Below, one piece after another: positions 1,009-8,081 of a stretch of 8,081 nucleotides of DNA (position 1 is its first letter; each line of letters opens with the position of its first letter). The DNA is taken from positions 1 through 8,081 of the forward strand of contig SKJM01000354.1 in NCBI GenBank assembly GCA_007122045.1. Reading direction: 5' to 3'. Position numbers and translations under genes: made by a program. The notes under the pieces were generated by a model. The model had not been told where the DNA came from. It made no database searches and saw only the letters and a program-made list of their open reading frames with translations. The DNA is from Planctomycetales bacterium. GTDB taxonomy: Bacteria > Planctomycetota > Planctomycetia > Pirellulales > Thermoguttaceae.

Positions 1009-3543
1009 CTATTCGACCTCCGTTAGGGCGTCGATCAGCGCAGGATCGTCGATCTGAGGGATGTTGTCGAGCAGAAACTTCGGATTGCAGTTGGCGAAAT
1101 CGCTTGTGAGGTACATCCACAACGGGATGCTGGGGCCGAAGTTCGCTGGAAAGTATTCCGTGAACTCGAAGGGCACCCGGCGCTGGTAGCCTCGAAAGAA
1201 GTCTAGTAGCTCGCGCTCAAGGCGCGGGGGAAGGTTGTAAGCCCGCAAGAGTATGGCGTCGATTTCAAGCAGTGCGCGTCTGGCAATGTCAGAGACATCA
1301 GCCGGTTTCAGCCCAGACGAATCATCGCTCCACAGTGCTTGATACGCGTCAACCGCTCGCGAAAGTGACTGTAATTGTGCGGTAGTCAGGTTCGGGACAG
1401 GAATTTGTTGGAAGGTCTTCTTCCGATTATCGAGCTTGTTTTCGCGGCACGCCAAATATGCGTTAGCTACTGGGCCATTCAGAAGGGCGGCAATCACGGT
1501 GATAGGAAGCTGGGCTGCAGGCCAAAGCGCAATGAATCTCTGAGACGAACAACGCCCCTGATCGTCGGCAAAAGCGGCCAACCGCCATGCTCCGCGAGAT
1601 ACCGTTGCTGCGTTGACGAAAACCTTCGGCCTGTCCCACTCGTAGTCGAACGCATTCCCTCTTCGGTCCCCTTTTCTGAATGACAGGTAGTACGTCCTTG
1701 GTGCCTGAAACGCCATCAAGGTCTCATCTTTCGCCTTGTAGAAGCCCTTTCGAAACCCCCGCTTCTCGGTCCTGGAGATGTACTTGTCTTCGGCAAATGG
1801 TGGTTGCCATTCGACGCCACGGTGCAGCGTCGCGATATCGCCAATAGTCGACATTCCTTTGAGGTGCGCCCAAACGTCGGCAAGCGGGGTGACCTTGAAC
1901 GATGCGGCGGCAGCCGGAACGGCCTTGGTTTCTGTCTCCCGCCACGACACTTCATAGTCGGACAAGAATCGTTCACGGTCGCCATCGCGCACATGAGAGA
2001 ACGACACTCGGACTGCCTGATTGTCAGCACTTGGCGATGAAGCGAGCAGAATCGCTGTTTCAATCTGACTCTGAGCGAACACGCGGTCCGGCAACGCAAG
2101 GACTTCAACTTCGCCGAATCGCTTTGCCAGTTGTTCGCGGATGGTCTTGTAGCCCCTTCCATCTAGCAGTTGCCGGGGCAAAACGAAACCCAATGTGCCG
2201 CCCCGCTTGAGCCTCGCTAGGACCCGTGTCAGTAACTCAACCGGTTTCTGGGTCGCACTGAGCCCGGAATAGGTCGCTCGTTCCTCGGGCGTGAACGATC
2301 CAAACGGTGGGTTACACAACACAACGTCCGCTCGTGCAACCGCATTCTCGAACGGTCTGGAATCGAAAACGTCGACCTGCTGCAGATTCCATCCGTTTGG
2401 AAACGGAAAATCCGCGAGCATCAGACACAAGCGACTGATTTCGAGCGCGAACGAGTCTCTTTCGTATCCGGCGAGCGACTTGACGAAATAGCGGTGGCGC
2501 TGCTCCGGATCGATATCGGCCGGCAGTAGGTCTCGCAATCTTTCCAAAGCTGCGACAAGGAATATCCCGTGTCCGGAACACGGCTCGACAATGCGCGGCG
2601 GCTGTCCAACATGTGCCTCGGTCAACATCTTTCCGGCGATGTACCGCGCGACGGCGACGGGCGTGCTGTGGATCCCCAGTTTCTTTCGCGACTGATCGTC
2701 AATCAGCGTGTGCTCGTAAACGTACGCCAGCGATTCGACCGATAGGTTTTCGAAGCTGATGCTGCGCCACAACTGTTCCGCGACGATTTGCCGTGTCCGG
2801 GGATCATCGAGGACGGGTCCGGGTTGATTGTAGTACTTACCAACGCGGGCCAGTACATCGTCAACGTGGTCGAAATCCGTGATTGATCGGAATCGGTTCA
2901 CCCGTCGATCGCACAGGACCTTCGCTGCGAGGAGCCGGAAGACGAGTCGGAACAGCTCCTGCACGTCCGGCTTGCGGCCGGTGGCTCGTTTGTGTGTCTC
3001 CGTCGCCGTGGTGAGCACGTCTTTCAGCAATGCGTCAAGCTTCTCGCGGATGTGCTCCTCGAGCGCTGGAAGCAATCCGAGATCCACGAAATCCAACTGA
3101 CGCGATTGGAGCGTGGTCGAGATATTCTTCGCCCTGAGAATGCTATCGGGTGACCAATCCCCGGCGTTCTGTGCAAACTCGGAACGGATATTGGAAGCCG
3201 CGATCTCCTTCCAGACGCTCGACGAAGCCGCCCCGACCCGCCATTGGCGCACTAGGGTGTCATCGACCTCGAATGCAACGGGAGCCCCAAACGCTCGGTA
3301 CGAGTCGACGATGTTTGTCGGTTGACACTCATGAGCGAGTAGCACGCTAATGCAGGCGGAGTCGAAAGACGGAGGAGTGCGTCCAAACGCCGCGGCCGGG
3401 ACGACCCGCGTTGGAGAATCTGGAGACAGAAAGTCGGTGTACCTGTAGTCTTCAAACAACAACCCCTCTCCGTAACCAGCCGATTTGAGTGCGGTCAGGA
3501 TGGAGCGAAAATTGTTCTCTTGCGCGTTGCTCTTGAAGTCCAT
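1009..3543 (-). CDS. N6-adenine DNA methyltransferase with a TaqI-like specificity region
   Basis: An 844-aa protein expected to methylate adenine N6 in DNA using S-adenosylmethionine. Domains: an N-terminal region of about 1-270 of unknown function; then KLGIHSTPVAVARYIA (288-303, motif X region), SAM-binding motif I IVEPCSGHGIFL (318-329), motif II GYERDSFALEIS (359-370), motif III near DVFD (391-394) and catalytic motif IV NPPF (411-414). About 560-720 resembles target-recognition segments of TaqI/Eco57I-type enzymes, including CRENKLDNRKKTFQQIPVP near its end. A helical tail closes the protein. I see no convincing PD-(D/E)xK nuclease motif, so it may be methylation-only. ATG at 3543 is the only standard start after an in-frame TAG upstream, but no strong ribosome binding site precedes it. 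It is the first gene of an operon with the PIN gene. Methyltransferase class is firm; whether it is a type IIG enzyme, an orphan or a defence component is open. Confidence 0.9.
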   Translation of the reverse strand: MDFKSNAQENNFRSILTALKSAGYGEGLLFEDYRYTDFLSPDSPTRVVPAAAFGRTPPSFDSACISVLLAHECQPTNIVDSYRAFGAPVAFEVDDTLVRQWRVGAASSSVWKEIAASNIRSEFAQNAGDWSPDSILRAKNISTTLQSRQLDFVDLGLLPALEEHIREKLDALLKDVLTTATETHKRATGRKPDVQELFRLVFRLLAAKVLCDRRVNRFRSITDFDHVDDVLARVGKYYNQPGPVLDDPRTRQIVAEQLWRSISFENLSVESLAYVYEHTLIDDQSRKKLGIHSTPVAVARYIAGKMLTEAHVGQPPRIVEPCSGHGIFLVAALERLRDLLPADIDPEQRHRYFVKSLAGYERDSFALEISRLCLMLADFPFPNGWNLQQVDVFDSRPFENAVARADVVLCNPPFGSFTPEERATYSGLSATQKPVELLTRVLARLKRGGTLGFVLPRQLLDGRGYKTIREQLAKRFGEVEVLALPDRVFAQSQIETAILLASSPSADNQAVRVSFSHVRDGDRERFLSDYEVSWRETETKAVPAAAASFKVTPLADVWAHLKGMSTIGDIATLHRGVEWQPPFAEDKYISRTEKRGFRKGFYKAKDETLMAFQAPRTYYLSFRKGDRRGNAFDYEWDRPKVFVNAATVSRGAWRLAAFADDQGRCSSQRFIALWPAAQLPITVIAALLNGPVANAYLACRENKLDNRKKTFQQIPVPNLTTAQLQSLSRAVDAYQALWSDDSSGLKPADVSDIARRALLEIDAILLRAYNLPPRLERELLDFFRGYQRRVPFEFTEYFPANFGPSIPLWMYLTSDFANCNPKFLLDNIPQIDDPALIDALTEVE
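1017..1021 (-). promoter_or_regulatory. Ribosome binding site of the PIN gene
   Basis: GGAGG on the - strand, 8 bases before the GTG start at 1008. It lies inside the last codons of the methyltransferase gene. It decides the GTG start and supports translation of the PIN gene by ribosomes finishing the upstream gene. Confidence 0.75.
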
Positions 3544-4270: not shown

Positions 4271-4447
4271 ATGCGTGATCTCCAAGACGGCGAGTCGGCC
4301 CAGGTGCAAGGATCGGCCCGCACTCCGTACATCCTCAAGAACGTCGGCGGCGTCTACTCCTGCTCCTGCCCGGCCTGGCGGAACCAGTCGCTGCCGATCG
4401 AACGCCGGACCTGCAAACACATCCGGCTTATGCCCAGCTGGGCATAA
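4271..4447 (+). pseudogene. SWIM zinc-finger gene, 5' part, interrupted by the RIT element
   Basis: The frame codes 58 aa: MRDLQDGESAQVQGSAR, then a SWIM finger with C31, C33, C48 and H50 (CSCPAWRN, then TCKHI; a CxC-x14-CxH spacing). SWIM fingers bind DNA or protein. From memory, planctomycetes have proteins with this start that continue into longer domains, in some cases an ATP-dependent DNA ligase; that is recall, not a search result. The frame runs into the element's left-end palindrome at codons 51-52, and TAA (4445-4447) comes from the palindrome. The tail LMPSWA is therefore element-derived. The complete four-ligand finger is kept, so a 58-aa finger peptide could still be made, but the rest of the protein is cut off. 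The continuation should lie beyond 8081, outside the window. Confidence 0.75.
4421..4427 (+). repeat. Left copy of 7-bp direct repeat ATCCGGC, possible crossover core
   Basis: ATCCGGC here (host codons Ile-Arg plus one base) recurs in the same orientation at 8075-8081, at the other outer edge. This fits a core shared by target and element. It is also what the palindrome and inverted repeat would give by themselves, so the meaning is uncertain. Confidence 0.4.
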
Positions 4448-4454
4448 GCCGGAT
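4421..4454. repeat. Perfect 34-bp palindrome at the left end of the element
   Basis: The 17 bases from 4421 to 4437 are the exact reverse complement of 4438-4454, centred on CAG|CTG. Each arm contains the element's end motif, so the centre is a head-to-head pair of copies. The right arm's last 7 bases (GCCGGAT, 4448-4454) are also the first 7 of the 32-bp inverted repeat. The left arm overlaps the last host codons of the SWIM gene. It may be a recombinase binding site with two facing arms, or could form a hairpin in single-stranded DNA or RNA. Confidence 0.9.
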
Positions 4455-4479
4455 TATGCCCAGTTCAGGATTATGCGCA
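4448..4479 (+). repeat. Left terminal inverted repeat of the RIT element
   Basis: Thirty-two bases identical to the reverse complement of 8050-8081. Inside are two direct copies of one motif: CCGGATTATGCCCA (4449-4462) and CAGGATTATGCGCA (4466-4479), offset by 17 bases. Identity stops sharply at 4480. Confidence 0.95.
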
Positions 4480-4488
4480 CCACAGCAT

Positions 4489-4505
4489 CGGGCACCCCGG
4501 TTTTT
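4489..4505 (+). terminator. Possible weak rightward terminator inside the left end
   Basis: CGGG (4489-4492), a 3-base loop and CCCG (4496-4499), then G and five T (4501-4505). The stem is only 4 bp. If real, it would stop transcripts of the SWIM gene from running antisense into the last recombinase gene. An overlapping alternative stem, CATCG (4486-4490) with CGATG (4509-4513), is also possible. Confidence 0.25.
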
Positions 4506-4528
4506 GAGCGATGGTCGTGGCTTTGCAA

Positions 4529-4540
4529 TGCACATAATCA
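4529..4540 (-). repeat. Inner, reversed degenerate copy of the end motif (left)
   Basis: TGCACATAATCA matches TGCGCATAATCC of the right repeat at 10 of 12 positions and faces opposite to the two outer left copies. It lies 49 bases inside the left repeat and overlaps the stop codon of the third recombinase gene. Its counterpart is at 7968-7979. Confidence 0.5.
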
Positions 4541-5548
4541 CAGTTCATCCAGGAACTTCATCAGGGGCTTGGCGGCGGTTCGTCGCTGCTTCGGGACGTG
4601 TGGTGGCTCCAAAAGTGACAGAGCCTGTCGTTTGGATTCCACATCTGCGGCCAAGTACTGATGGGTGGTCTGAATGCTCTCGTGTCCCAGCCAAATTGCG
4701 ATCGTCGAGAGGTCGACGCCCGATTGGAGAAGATGGGTGGCGGTCGTATGGCGAATAGTATGTGGCGACACGCGGACCGATCGCAACGCGGGATGTTTTT
4801 CCGCGGCGCGTGTCACTGCGAGTTGGAGACGCTGTGCGACGCCGGAACGGCTCATTGCCCCCCCACGACCGTTGGGCAGAAGCGGTGAATCGGGAGTCAC
4901 TCCAGCTCGCCGTAGCCAGGGTCGCAGAAGCTTGGTTGTTTGCCGCCACAGCGGTACAGACCGGTGTTTCCGGCCCTTGCCAAGAAGATGAACCGACGCA
5001 TGTGATTCGAGACACACGTTTTTGACCTTTAGGCCGACAAGCTCCGACACTCGTGCTCCGGTGTTGTACAGCAACATCAACAGCAACTGATCCCGCTGAC
5101 CGGTCATCGTGGTAGCGTTCGGCGTGTCCAATACGGCTTGCATCTGGTCACGAGTGAGGTATTTGACAGAACCACGGTCGAAGCGTTTAATCGGAACGGC
5201 GAGCACTCGCTGCGCGACCGGCATCAGCAGTGGATTCGCAGCGGTGGCATGGCGAAGGAATGAGCGGATTGCCGCAAGGCGGGCATTGCGACTACGGGCA
5301 CAGTTACCTCGGGATTTCTCCAGGTCTACCAGAAATGCCAGCACGCGGTCGGCGGTTAGGTCATCCACGCAAAGCTTGTCTGGTTTGAGGTGCCATCGCT
5401 TCTGAAGAAATCGCAATAACAACCGGAAAGCATCGCGGTAGGAACTGATTGTCCGCGGGCTCAAGTCACGCTGGCCGATCAGGTAGGAGTAGAAGTAGGA
5501 TTGAATCGCCGGGCCGAGCGGGATTCTGGGAGTCGATTGATTCCTCAT
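4538..5548 (-). CDS. ritC: Tyrosine recombinase, third gene of the RIT trio
   Basis: A 336-aa site-specific tyrosine recombinase. The N-terminal core-binding (SAM-like) domain is about 10-105 (SPRTISSYRDAFRLLLRFL) and the catalytic domain about 125-310. Catalytic residues visible: R166 (NTGARVSEL), K191 (LLGKGRKHRSVPL), H263 and R266 (SPHTIRHTTATHLLQSG), H289 (WLGHES) and nucleophile Y298 (TTHQYLA), nine residues after H289 as in the other two. The frame is open up to 5635, but ATG at 5548 is preferred: it overlaps the upstream stop as ATGA and has GGAG 6 bases before it. The 29 residues gained from the upstream start look like out-of-frame translation. It is expected to work with the other two recombinases to move the element; the division of labour is not readable from sequence. 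The stop lies 58 bases from the left inverted repeat. Confidence 0.92.
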   Translation of the reverse strand: MRNQSTPRIPLGPAIQSYFYSYLIGQRDLSPRTISSYRDAFRLLLRFLQKRWHLKPDKLCVDDLTADRVLAFLVDLEKSRGNCARSRNARLAAIRSFLRHATAANPLLMPVAQRVLAVPIKRFDRGSVKYLTRDQMQAVLDTPNATTMTGQRDQLLLMLLYNTGARVSELVGLKVKNVCLESHASVHLLGKGRKHRSVPLWRQTTKLLRPWLRRAGVTPDSPLLPNGRGGAMSRSGVAQRLQLAVTRAAEKHPALRSVRVSPHTIRHTTATHLLQSGVDLSTIAIWLGHESIQTTHQYLAADVESKRQALSLLEPPHVPKQRRTAAKPLMKFLDEL

Positions 5549-6501
5549 GAGCGTCTCCGTGGCGATGAAGTTGCGAACAGTTCGAAGCGACTCCCGACTA
5601 TTGCCAGGAGTTCTGGTGTGGCAGTCAGGTACCAATAGGTGCTGGTAACGCAGGCATGCCCCAGATAGGTCGAGAGTGCTGCGATCTTGTGATGGACATT
5701 CTCGCCGTCACGATACCAGCGCAGAAGGCAGTGGCAGGCGAAGCTGTGGCGCAGATCGTGGATGCGCGGACGGGGCCAGTCGCCGTTGCCCTGCCGCCAT
5801 CCCAATTCCACACAAAGCGTGCGAAAAGCATCAAGTGCGCCCCAGTGCGACAGCGCCGATCCGCAAGGGCCGACAAAGAAGGGCTTTCTCTTATCGTGGC
5901 CCCACCGGCGATTGCGGGCTGCCACGTAGCGTCTCAACGCTCGGGTAGCTGTCGGATGCAACGGAACCAGCCGAGACTTCTTGAACTTGGTCTGTTCGAT
6001 CCGTAGGATGCCGCGTTTCAGGTCAGCCTGCCCAAGCGTAAGCTTCAAGGCCTCACCCACCCGCAAACCCGTCGAGGCCAACAACCCGAAAAGCGTTCGG
6101 TATGTCAACGGTCTAAGTTCATACGTGGGCTTTAGACACCGAGTGGCTTTCAGGAGTTGTGCGAGTTGTCGATCGTCAAAGATGTGCGGACGGGAACGCC
6201 AACCTTTCGGCATGAGCCGCTGATCTGGCACCTCCGTCTGTCCATCCCGAGTGGCCAAGTACCTGGCGAAGCCGCGGACAACCGTTAATCGGCCTGCCTT
6301 GTATTTTGTGCTCGCAGCCTTTGGCAGATTGACCCAACGAAGAATCACATCCGTCGTGAGGGGGCCTCGCCAGCCAGAACGATCCAGGTATGTGGCAAAG
6401 TTCAGGAGAAGTCTTCCCGAGTGCCGCAAGTCGAAGCCAAGCGCCCGCCTGTAATCGAGGTAGGCCTGGGCCTTTCGAACCATGGTCCGTTGACGGCTCA
6501 T
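5545..6501 (-). CDS. ritB: Tyrosine recombinase, second gene of the RIT trio
   Basis: A 318-aa tyrosine recombinase. The N-terminal domain spans about 1-95 (KAQAYLDYRRALGFDLR, then a helical region ending ARYLATRDG) and the catalytic domain about 105-300. Residues visible: R147 (STGLRVGEALKL), probable K172 (EQTKFKKSRLVPLHP), H248 and R251 (RIHDLRHSFACHCL), H282 (YLGHACV) and nucleophile Y291 (STYWYL). ATG at 6501 overlaps the upstream stop as ATGA and has a strong AAGGAGG before it. Its own stop overlaps the next start in the same way (5545-5548), so the three proteins are probably made in similar amounts. The motifs differ clearly from the neighbours, so it is a separate lineage rather than a recent duplicate. 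It acts on DNA at the element ends, presumably together with the other two. Confidence 0.93.
   Translation of the reverse strand: MSRQRTMVRKAQAYLDYRRALGFDLRHSGRLLLNFATYLDRSGWRGPLTTDVILRWVNLPKAASTKYKAGRLTVVRGFARYLATRDGQTEVPDQRLMPKGWRSRPHIFDDRQLAQLLKATRCLKPTYELRPLTYRTLFGLLASTGLRVGEALKLTLGQADLKRGILRIEQTKFKKSRLVPLHPTATRALRRYVAARNRRWGHDKRKPFFVGPCGSALSHWGALDAFRTLCVELGWRQGNGDWPRPRIHDLRHSFACHCLLRWYRDGENVHHKIAALSTYLGHACVTSTYWYLTATPELLAIVGSRFELFATSSPRRRS
5554..5558 (-). promoter_or_regulatory. Ribosome binding site of the third recombinase gene
   Basis: ACGGAGAC on the - strand, with GGAG ending 6 bases before the ATG at 5548. It decides the 336-aa start over the longer 365-aa one. Confidence 0.65.
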
Positions 6502-7751
6502 CGCTGCACCTCCTTGGCTCCGGGCCAGGGTAGGCCAACTTGAGAGAGGGCTTTGAGATCGACCTTCGCGTAGATGGTGGTAGTGTCGATAGACCGATGC
6601 CCAAGGACATCGGCGATTTGCCTGAGGCTTGCCCCGGCGCTCAGCATCCGACTGGCGATGCTATGACGAAGGATGTGGGCGGCGCCGATGTCCTTTCGCA
6701 ATCCTGCACGAGCCGCCCAGCGCTTGACCATTACACTGATGGTTACCGAGCAAATCGGTTTGCCGATCCTTGGTGGCCAGTGCGCGACAAAAACGGTCGG
6801 TGCCGTGCATGTTGGCCGCCCGTGTCGTAGGTAAACCTTCAGTGCCTTGGAGAGCTTGCGTGGAATTGGGAATGTTGCCGATCCTCCTCTTTTGCTGCGA
6901 CGCGCCTGAAGTATGCCAGAGTCAAGATTGACGCCACTCAGTTCCAGCCTCGCTACTTCTCCGGACCGCAACCCCAATTCGCTCATGCACAGCAACATGG
7001 CCCGGTCACGCATGCCGATTGGCGTCTCAGCATCGGGCATGTTGAGTAGCCGGGCGAGTTCTTCTTCCCGTAACGTCTCCGGCAGCGACGCCAAACGCCA
7101 ACATGCGAACCCTGGTACGGCAGCCGATAGATCGCGTCGAATCAGCCCCTCCTGTAATAGAAATCGCAGGAAAGATCGAGTGGCAGTGGTGATAGAGTTG
7201 GCGGTGACTGGTTCATGGCGTCGAACTTCACACGCGACGAAATCTTCGATTTGTTCGGGTGTCCAGGTAGCCAGTTGACCAGCCTGCCGTACTCGCAGGC
7301 GAGTAAGCATGGTCAGCGCTGATCTCAAACGATTACGCACGGTGCCCGTGGCGAGCCCACGCACGCTGACGAGATACTCTTGATAGCGTCGAAGCAGGCG
7401 GCCACCGAAGCCACGAGGGAACTCTGGTCGCCGTGTCTCCACGGATGGTCGGATCATCGTCAAGAGACGGTGGAGTGCCATGTAGTTTCGTCTGGAATCA
7501 CAAGGCGCTGGCGGCGGGCACCGACACACGGGTAAATGCCGACGCACGAATTGCTGAACCACCGCGGCGTTCAACGGCCGTCGCCCCAGCCAGCGGCCGA
7601 AGTGGTCAACAACCCGAAGACTGTCCCACACGCTTTCAGTGCAGTAACCGTGGCGAACAAGGTGATCGAGATACCGCCTGAGCACTGGCCCAAGGGGATT
7701 CTGAGGAATACGCAACTGCATTCGACGGACCGCACGCTCGTATTTGGACAT
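6498..7751 (-). CDS. ritA: Tyrosine recombinase, first gene of the RIT trio
   Basis: A 417-aa tyrosine recombinase, the longest of the three. An extra N-terminal region of about 1-110 holds a Cys cluster, HLPVCRCPPPAPC (C76, C78, C84). A core-binding domain follows at about 115-205 and the catalytic domain at about 225-400. Residues visible: R262 (ELGLRSGEVARLEL), probable K287 (RRSKRGGSATFPIP), H359 and R362 (AAHILRHSIASRMLSAG), H385 (VLGHRSID) and nucleophile Y394 (TTIYAKVD). ATG at 7751 is fixed by AAAGGAGG 6 bases upstream. Its stop overlaps the next start (6498-6501). The operon therefore reads from the right inverted repeat toward the broken SWIM gene. First-position, longest recombinase is as expected for RIT elements. 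The Cys cluster may be a small metal-binding or structural feature; the role is unknown. Confidence 0.93.
   Translation of the reverse strand: MSKYERAVRRMQLRIPQNPLGPVLRRYLDHLVRHGYCTESVWDSLRVVDHFGRWLGRRPLNAAVVQQFVRRHLPVCRCPPPAPCDSRRNYMALHRLLTMIRPSVETRRPEFPRGFGGRLLRRYQEYLVSVRGLATGTVRNRLRSALTMLTRLRVRQAGQLATWTPEQIEDFVACEVRRHEPVTANSITTATRSFLRFLLQEGLIRRDLSAAVPGFACWRLASLPETLREEELARLLNMPDAETPIGMRDRAMLLCMSELGLRSGEVARLELSGVNLDSGILQARRSKRGGSATFPIPRKLSKALKVYLRHGRPTCTAPTVFVAHWPPRIGKPICSVTISVMVKRWAARAGLRKDIGAAHILRHSIASRMLSAGASLRQIADVLGHRSIDTTTIYAKVDLKALSQVGLPWPGAKEVQR
6509..6513 (-). promoter_or_regulatory. Ribosome binding site of the second recombinase gene
   Basis: GGAGG, within AAGGAGGTG on the - strand, 7 bases before the ATG at 6501. 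It lies inside the end of the upstream gene and supports coupled translation. Confidence 0.7.
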
Positions 7752-7757
7752 GAACGC

Positions 7758-7765
7758 CCTCCTTT
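7758..7765 (-). promoter_or_regulatory. Ribosome binding site of the first recombinase gene
   Basis: AAAGGAGG on the - strand, 6 bases before the ATG at 7751. It is among the strongest sites in the window and fixes the operon's first start. Confidence 0.8.
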
Positions 7766-8049
7766 GTTGTTCCTGCGGGACACTCGTAAGACTGTTTGCC
7801 TTTTCGGATGCGAAGCCGGGATTTGTTCATGCCGGAGAAAAGAAGACGCCCTGTATCTAAGACGCTCAGTTGAAGCCCCCTTGGAATAGGAAGAACCCGC
7901 ACAGTCACGGACGCGAACCGCACCATCAGAGAAGAACCCCACGGAGGAATCGCATAGAAGAGCACCCTGGTTATGTACAGTACACGGTCGCGAGAGTGCC
8001 AGTCAGCACCGGCAATCCGAGGCGGATTCCGTCACCTTGCAGGCGCTAC
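7766..8049 (-). promoter_or_regulatory. Leader region of the recombinase operon
   Basis: About 280 bases lie between the right inverted repeat and the first recombinase gene. The operon promoter should be here or in the repeat itself, but I see no clear -35/-10 pair. Open frames crossing the region on the - strand run out of frame into the recombinase gene and have no good start site, so I do not call a leader peptide. The one structured stretch is TGTACAGTACA (7974-7984) beside the inner motif copy. Confidence 0.4.
7968..7979 (+). repeat. Inner, reversed degenerate copy of the end motif (right)
   Basis: TGGTTATGTACA matches the reverse complement of the left inner copy (TGATTATGTGCA) at 10 of 12 positions and faces opposite to the two outer right copies, 70 bases inside the right repeat. 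The likeness weakens but goes on for about 5 more bases. It could be an accessory binding site, or an operator, since it lies in the operon leader. Confidence 0.45.
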
Positions 8050-8081
8050 TGCGCATAATCCTGAACTGGGCATAATCCGGC
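8050..8081 (-). repeat. Right terminal inverted repeat of the RIT element
   Basis: Exact inverted copy of 4448-4479, with motif copies TGCGCATAATCCTG (8050-8063) and TGGGCATAATCCGG (8067-8080). It runs to the last base of the window, so it may continue, and any palindrome like that at the left end would lie outside. Confidence 0.95.
8075..8081 (+). repeat. Right copy of 7-bp direct repeat ATCCGGC
   Basis: Same orientation as 4421-4427, and the last seven bases of the window. Removing everything between the two copies plus one copy would leave the SWIM gene reading Cys-Lys-His-Ile-Arg into whatever follows. Confidence 0.4.

Follow-up and report, generated by a model that had tools for sequence, protein, structure and literature searches.

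The window, by which we mean the whole 8,081-nucleotide stretch of Planctomycetales contig SKJM01000354.1 analysed here, ends in a RIT element that cuts off an ATP-dependent DNA ligase gene behind the codons for CKHIR. The features of this region are listed below in order of position, with W, X and Y denoting 6-bp spacers and P a palindrome.

4271-4427, plus strand: 5' part of the cut ATP-dependent DNA ligase gene, with the SWIM motif ...YSCSCPAW...RRTCKHIR; 4422-4427 is spacer W
4421: last host position ahead of spacer W
4422-4427: spacer W, TCCGGC, between host and palindrome P; host or donor sequence both possible
4428-4447: palindrome P (TTATGCCCAG/CTGGGCATAA), 20 bp, outside the ritC-side end; 10/10 arm pairs
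4448-4453: spacer X, GCCGGA, an inverted copy of spacer W
4454-4480, plus strand: ritC-side terminal repeat, with outer arm a1 (4454-4463), 7 bp, and inner arm a2 (4471-4480); 26 bp common to the other end
4538-5548, minus strand: ritC, 336-aa tyrosine recombinase; best RitC match L052, 62%
5545-6501, minus strand: ritB, 318-aa tyrosine recombinase; best RitB match L052, 57%
6498-7751, minus strand: ritA, 417-aa tyrosine recombinase with two predicted N-terminal core-binding domains; nearest L051, 50%
8049-8075, minus strand: ritA-side terminal repeat, with inner arm 8049-8058 and outer arm 8066-8075
8076-8081: spacer Y, TCCGGC, in sequence and direction as W; the contig stops here

Elsewhere in the window, the minus strand encodes an 844-aa N6 DNA methylase (1009-3543; matches PF02384) and, directly after it, a PIN-domain (VapC-like) protein (469-1008, also minus strand), which are possibly a defence or modification module.

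All three recombinase frames are complete and overlap by 4 bp (ATGA) at 6498-6501 (ritA/ritB) and 5545-5548 (ritB/ritC). The catalytic Arg, HxxR, His and Tyr are legible in each translation (GLRSGEV / HILRH / GHRS..IY in RitA, GLRVGEA / HDLRH / GHAC..WY in RitB and GARVSEL / HTIRH / GHES..QY in RitC) and PF00589 is matched by all three proteins, which bears out the first-pass annotation's account of three intact tyrosine recombinases chained by ATGA. Its naming of the trio as RIT also holds: compared with 211 proteins of other RIT loci, fetched with a RitA query and sorted into types by gene order, RitA, RitB and RitC each had the best match to their own type (374, 367 and 400 bits, respectively) and scored at most 90 bits against the other types. 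In an AlphaFold2 model of RitA (mean pLDDT 82, pTM 0.50), the helix list predicts two four-helix bundles ahead of the catalytic domain, and XerA, XerD and lambda integrase are among its closest PDB matches; two core-binding domains are likewise stated for RitA in the available text of PMC8138268. RIT elements are also characterized by an extra C-terminal helix in RitC. The trio shows other features by which they are recognized, namely adjacent same-strand tyrosine recombinase genes with overlaps of 4-8 bp, a terminal inverted repeat (here 26 bp plus a 6-bp spacer) with a length near 3.5 kb (here 3,622 bp) and, in the predicted model, a RitA with two core-binding domains. RitA also matches its counterparts from pHG1 and EbN1, both named as RIT carriers in the accessible part of PMC3414803, although the 34% identity places the window's element at a distance from those RITs.

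The element body spans 4454-8075. It had first been delimited as 4421..8081 with a perfect 32-bp inverted repeat at its ends. The repeat is real (4448-4479 / 8050-8081), but it combines a 26-bp terminal repeat (4454-4479 / 8050-8075) with an attached 6-bp spacer (4448-4453 / 8076-8081), and the boundaries were misread: 4421 is host, 4422-4427 is a spacer and 4428-4447 is a palindrome in its own right. The resulting order is host, TCCGGC (4422-4427), P (4428-4447), GCCGGA (4448-4453), element (4454-8075), TCCGGC (8076-8081) and contig end. Separate from the terminal repeat, a perfect 34-bp palindrome at 4421-4454 extends into the host codons CAC ATC CGG. Recent movement had also been read from the perfect ends, a weak argument that we dropped, as the 26-bp terminal repeat is perfect in 31 of 53 RIT loci. 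The source assembly is fragmented (4.3 Mb in 861 contigs, 72.7% complete) and window base 8081 was confirmed as the contig end; the right junction of the element therefore falls beyond it and is unseen.

The frame from 4271 reads MRDLQDGES...YSCSCPAWRNQSLPIERRTCKHIR and then enters the element. A search of 99 genomes with the ligase fragment matched 11, including its own, with a weak and broken match in G063, and at 11 places in nine relatives' genomes the ligase frame continues uninterrupted across the insertion site (...CKHLR-AFRGEQAE...SEKLDGVR). One intact relative (L016; 338 aa) matches PF01068 and PF14743, both of ATP-dependent DNA ligase. The earlier claim of insertion inside an identifiable gene is supported by these uninterrupted relatives. 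Within the 72.7% complete source assembly, neither the remainder of the ligase gene nor any further element copy was found, and the 12-base end sequence used as a probe occurs only at the element's two ends in the window, as for a single copy.

We surveyed other RIT loci for the same arrangement. A single-sequence query found no close RitA relatives in genome contigs; a RitA alignment gave 408 confirmed genome loci, of which 80 were kept, and 27 viral loci, of which two were kept. Together with the window these made 83 loci, 56 with a usable repeat and 42 with both flanks; L056, L069, L080, L114 and L130 were excluded by hand. Each terminal repeat is built from a pair of direct 10-bp arms of type TTATGCCGAG, the outer (a1) and the inner (a2) being set 17 bp apart. 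On the P-bearing side, a1 is followed outward by spacer X, the 20-bp palindrome of two like arms, spacer W and host, and at the opposite end spacer Y alone separates a1 from host. Scoring P where at least seven of ten arm pairs matched at the expected centre, we found it on exactly one side in 34 of the 42 loci with both flanks (including both L053 and L054, which are 99.4% identical over 10 kb and likely one site in two bins), on neither side in eight and on both sides in none. It lay on the ritA side in 19 loci and on the ritC side in 15, and seven further loci, window included, carried it with the other flank cut. Palindromes in the expected register are far above chance, the threshold having been reached in 6 of 1034 control tests at 11 other centres. 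A later Planctomycetota set of 17 fetched loci included ten with both flanks readable, of which eight had P on exactly one side, five of these being copies of two elements (in genomes G279 and G577), and two had none; L198 had P with its other flank cut, and L188-L190, L192, L193 and L196 had no usable repeat. The anatomy itself, and a palindrome on one side only in most loci, are documented directly by these sequences.

Spacers W, X and Y of one locus are alike, differing on average at 0.85 to 1.3 of 6 positions, compared with about 3.45 of 6 between loci for W–X and W–Y, and W is identical to X in 20 of 40 cases within a locus versus 12 of 1560 between loci, with the L053/L054 pair counted once in these spacer comparisons and in those of the palindrome arm, p. 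In 8 of 37 loci no two of the three spacers are identical. Positions at which W, X and Y each had a different base numbered 2 of 222; this count was set aside, as such positions would also be few under independent mutation. The p arm resembles a2 more than a1 in 18 loci, a1 more than a2 in six and both equally in 16, and it is identical to a1 in only 4 of 40 loci (the window, L086, L092 and L115).

By BLAST, 35 targets of RIT elements comprised six rit-like genes (five RitB and one RitC; 44-58% identity), seven more recombinase-like genes, seven with the IS66 motif and 15 left unclassed. IS66 transposase genes, radC and a Tn6049-type transposase gene are already known as RIT sites from the available sections of PMC2864759 and PMC3414803. 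Joining the flanks in the 35 loci restores motifs of tyrosine recombinases (HxLR|HSFATHL; for example, HTLR|HSFATHL across flanks joined without P) and of IS66 transposases (GR|KNWLF). Open frames through the joined sites are weak proof alone (27 of 35, versus 42 of 70 frame-shifted controls), so the restored motifs and the empty site described below replace that argument. Among the insertions in ritB- or ritC-like genes, those of L060, L072, L074, L086, L127 and L100 lie at or beside the catalytic HxxR codons, and in L127 the frame is shifted across the insertion site. The window's own target half fits the target consensus weakly (614 of 16,110 positions score as high, or 1,713 of 16,122 when host bases alone are scored), and we rejected the consensus as proof of this insertion. 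The best match to the target-half consensus in the window is the element's own ritB (5727-5752, HDLR|HSFACH codons); the consensus is biased to recombinase targets.

Natural experiments came from other genomes. G279, a single-contig genome from the same order as the window's source, holds three copies (L182, L183 and L184) that are identical over 3,466 bp and lie in paralogous host genes (82-83% alike in the stretch of flank that matches). After removal of the element, P and one spacer, amidoligase-like open frames appear in two of the three loci (L182 product, PF12224); in L184 the longest frame is another one, yet the sequence at its junction is similar to that of the paralogs. L182 and L184 have P on the ritC side and L183 has it on the ritA side; it always adjoins the AATCGAAACC-type target half, with the body reversed in one copy. 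Identical copies in both orientations at paralogous sites are directly visible in this genome. In G321, which belongs to the same genus, the L182 gene is intact and the empty site carries a single TATCGA and no P, with flanks matching those in G279 at 99.9% over 1,191 bp and 100% over 1,915 bp. This filled and empty pair shows the interval present and absent as a unit, the check that the first-pass annotation had asked for, in a relative but not for the window's own copy; RIT mobility is supported by comparison for G279. A different RIT in G223 (L228, 2223-5713), with P on the ritC side, sits at another site in the same amidoligase family as in G279.

The spacers of these copies carry distinguishing marks. 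L182 and L184 have X=TATCGA, W'=CATCGA and Y=TATCGA, and L183 has X=CATCGA and W'=Y=TATCGA. A single circle, A–CATCGA–P–TATCGA–C, and a TATCGA target would account for both L182 (by the A spacer) and L183 (by the C spacer). L184 may be another product of this circle or its source, because L216 and L227, which share the downstream half of the L184 site, carry CATCGA there. The two identical copies in G577, L185 and L186, have one spacer sequence in common as X of the former and Y of the latter and another as W' of the former and X of the latter; they fit a circle A–CCAGCA–P–ATCACA–C, where targets would be CTGGCA and ATCGCA, target and donor spacers being assigned to fit the circle. The spacer marks fit one circle in each of these two genomes, a two-spacer test that rests on the pairs L182/L183 and L185/L186.

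We consider it likely that the window's SWIM-motif ligase gene was cut by a RIT element inserted through site-specific recombination from a circular form, the joint of which carried P between two spacers. Such a joint would read ritA end, 6-bp spacer, 20-bp P, 6-bp spacer and ritC end, and either spacer could recombine with a 6-bp chromosomal target. Depending on the spacer used for entry, P would come to lie next to the ritC end or next to the ritA end; it would always adjoin one particular target half, with the bare element end at the opposite half. Excision of the circle would be expected from recombination at W and Y. We infer the circle from the spacer marks; its joint was not found in viral contigs or 163 loci with exact patterns that covered the ATGCCG arm type only. 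With somewhat less assurance, we favour an integration mode that would be new to the papers cited here, with two equivalent crossover sites about the palindrome, which would permit either orientation and keep P on the same target half. The three arm types (a1 outer, a2 inner and p in the palindrome) would then be divided among the three recombinases, one site for each, and a crossover left intact would react again to yield P-less copies.

Copies without P could end up between two like target halves because the crossover left intact beside the palindrome would react with a second target. N-type halves at both ends are expected from continued activity of spacer X, which still has a1 and p on its two sides, or from recombination between two insertions. 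Scored on host bases only, with a classifier correct for 27 of 34 and 32 of 39 known flanks, seven of nine P-less loci (seven from the survey table plus L158 and L195; L057 omitted, as was L194 with its odd 57-bp repeat) have an N-type target half at both ends; the exceptions are L058, which is mixed, and L117, which scores the opposite way. A similar flank lies beside one end in two P-less elements, on the ritC side of L117 (GGGTTAGTCCAA) and on the ritA side of L058 (GGTTTAGTCCAA). In L057, one of the eight loci where neither side reached the P threshold, an imperfect palindrome is present (12 of 16 pairs). L080 (1-3720), kept off the table for its 250-bp repeat, carries P outside each end, with IS66 flanks that are P-type in both cases, and looks like the reciprocal recombinant. 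The genome with L080 also holds L078, and their element bodies are identical.

Other origins of the palindrome can be weighed against the same loci. The reach of the window's 34-bp palindrome into the host codons would suit a chromosomal palindrome that was there before and beside which RITs insert, but the empty site in G321 is without P, P does not vary among the three G279 copies or between the two in G577, whose flanks differ, and host motifs are restored when flanks are joined without it; we find this explanation scarcely credible. Fold-back copying of the element end, making P anew at each insertion, would explain why the P arm equals a1 in the window, yet such equality is confined to the four loci named above, the arm is more often nearer a2, and P is constant between identical copies. 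An assembly artefact would have to recur in the single-contig G279 and in two finished plasmid records (L159 and L161) in which P is legible. Taken as one alternative, de novo copying or artefact is very unlikely.

A further possibility is that RITs insert in one orientation with P fixed at one end, and that recombination between spacers X and Y afterwards flips the body in situ. The geometry permits this, X and Y being inverted copies with the same arm a1 on one side, and the reversed G279 copy could also be obtained by two in-place inversions. A single X-Y flip starting from L182, however, keeps W'=CATCGA and X=TATCGA, which are exchanged in L183, so that a second step is needed, and we regard in-place inversion as unlikely. 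It also seems rather improbable that the window's element is a dead remnant in a fragmented assembly and unable to move: it is a single copy, its own genome offers no empty site and the contig ends in a spacer, but its three frames are unbroken, with the catalytic residues in place, and lie between perfect ends. Insertion from a circle through either side of the palindrome remains our preferred reading, and the short palindrome that RIT elements usually have outside one end only is likely the trace of it.

RIT ends bear a likeness to dif, where XerC and XerD each act on one of two arms about a 6-bp spacer, but dif belongs to a cellular resolution system and has a single crossover site. Known RIT elements include those of Cupriavidus metallidurans CH34 (ritA1B1C1) and Aromatoleum EbN1, as described in the available parts of PMC2864759 and PMC3414803, and the window's element has in common with them overlapping ritA-ritB-ritC genes, a length of about 3.5 kb, a terminal repeat (28-34 bp in the RIT literature) and insertion inside genes. 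The accessible account in PMC3414803 reports a 28-9 bp inverted repeat and an 'overlapping palindromic sequence', features judged to match the usual sites poorly, leaves the palindrome uninterpreted and has difficulty explaining how four strand cuts are divided among three recombinases; the one-sided P, paired spacers and empty site seen in the present loci do not appear in it. RIT target specificity, empty site and movement are entered as NT (not tested) in the available portion of PMC10214605.

Among other multi-recombinase elements, GInts (PMC5385486, main text as available) resemble RITs in needing several recombinases and are described with 6-nt staggered cuts, spacer heteroduplex and a circle, but they have four genes and short imperfect direct repeats as attL/attR, and no palindrome is mentioned in the main text. 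Strand-biased circularizing elements and Tn554 (PMC10214605, in the sections available) are, like RITs, tyrosine recombinase transposons; they carry 6 bp of donor flank to the new site and use two recombinases with helper proteins, and no palindrome between crossover sites is described there. We claim no priority for P; the two-crossover integration mode proposed here is not described in the available text of PMC3414803, PMC10214605, PMC8138268, PMC5385486 or PMC2864759. Against these accounts, the present comparison gives defined arms, spacers and palindrome, a near-identical filled and empty pair and a precise prediction of the circle, with which RIT ends would become annotatable to the base.
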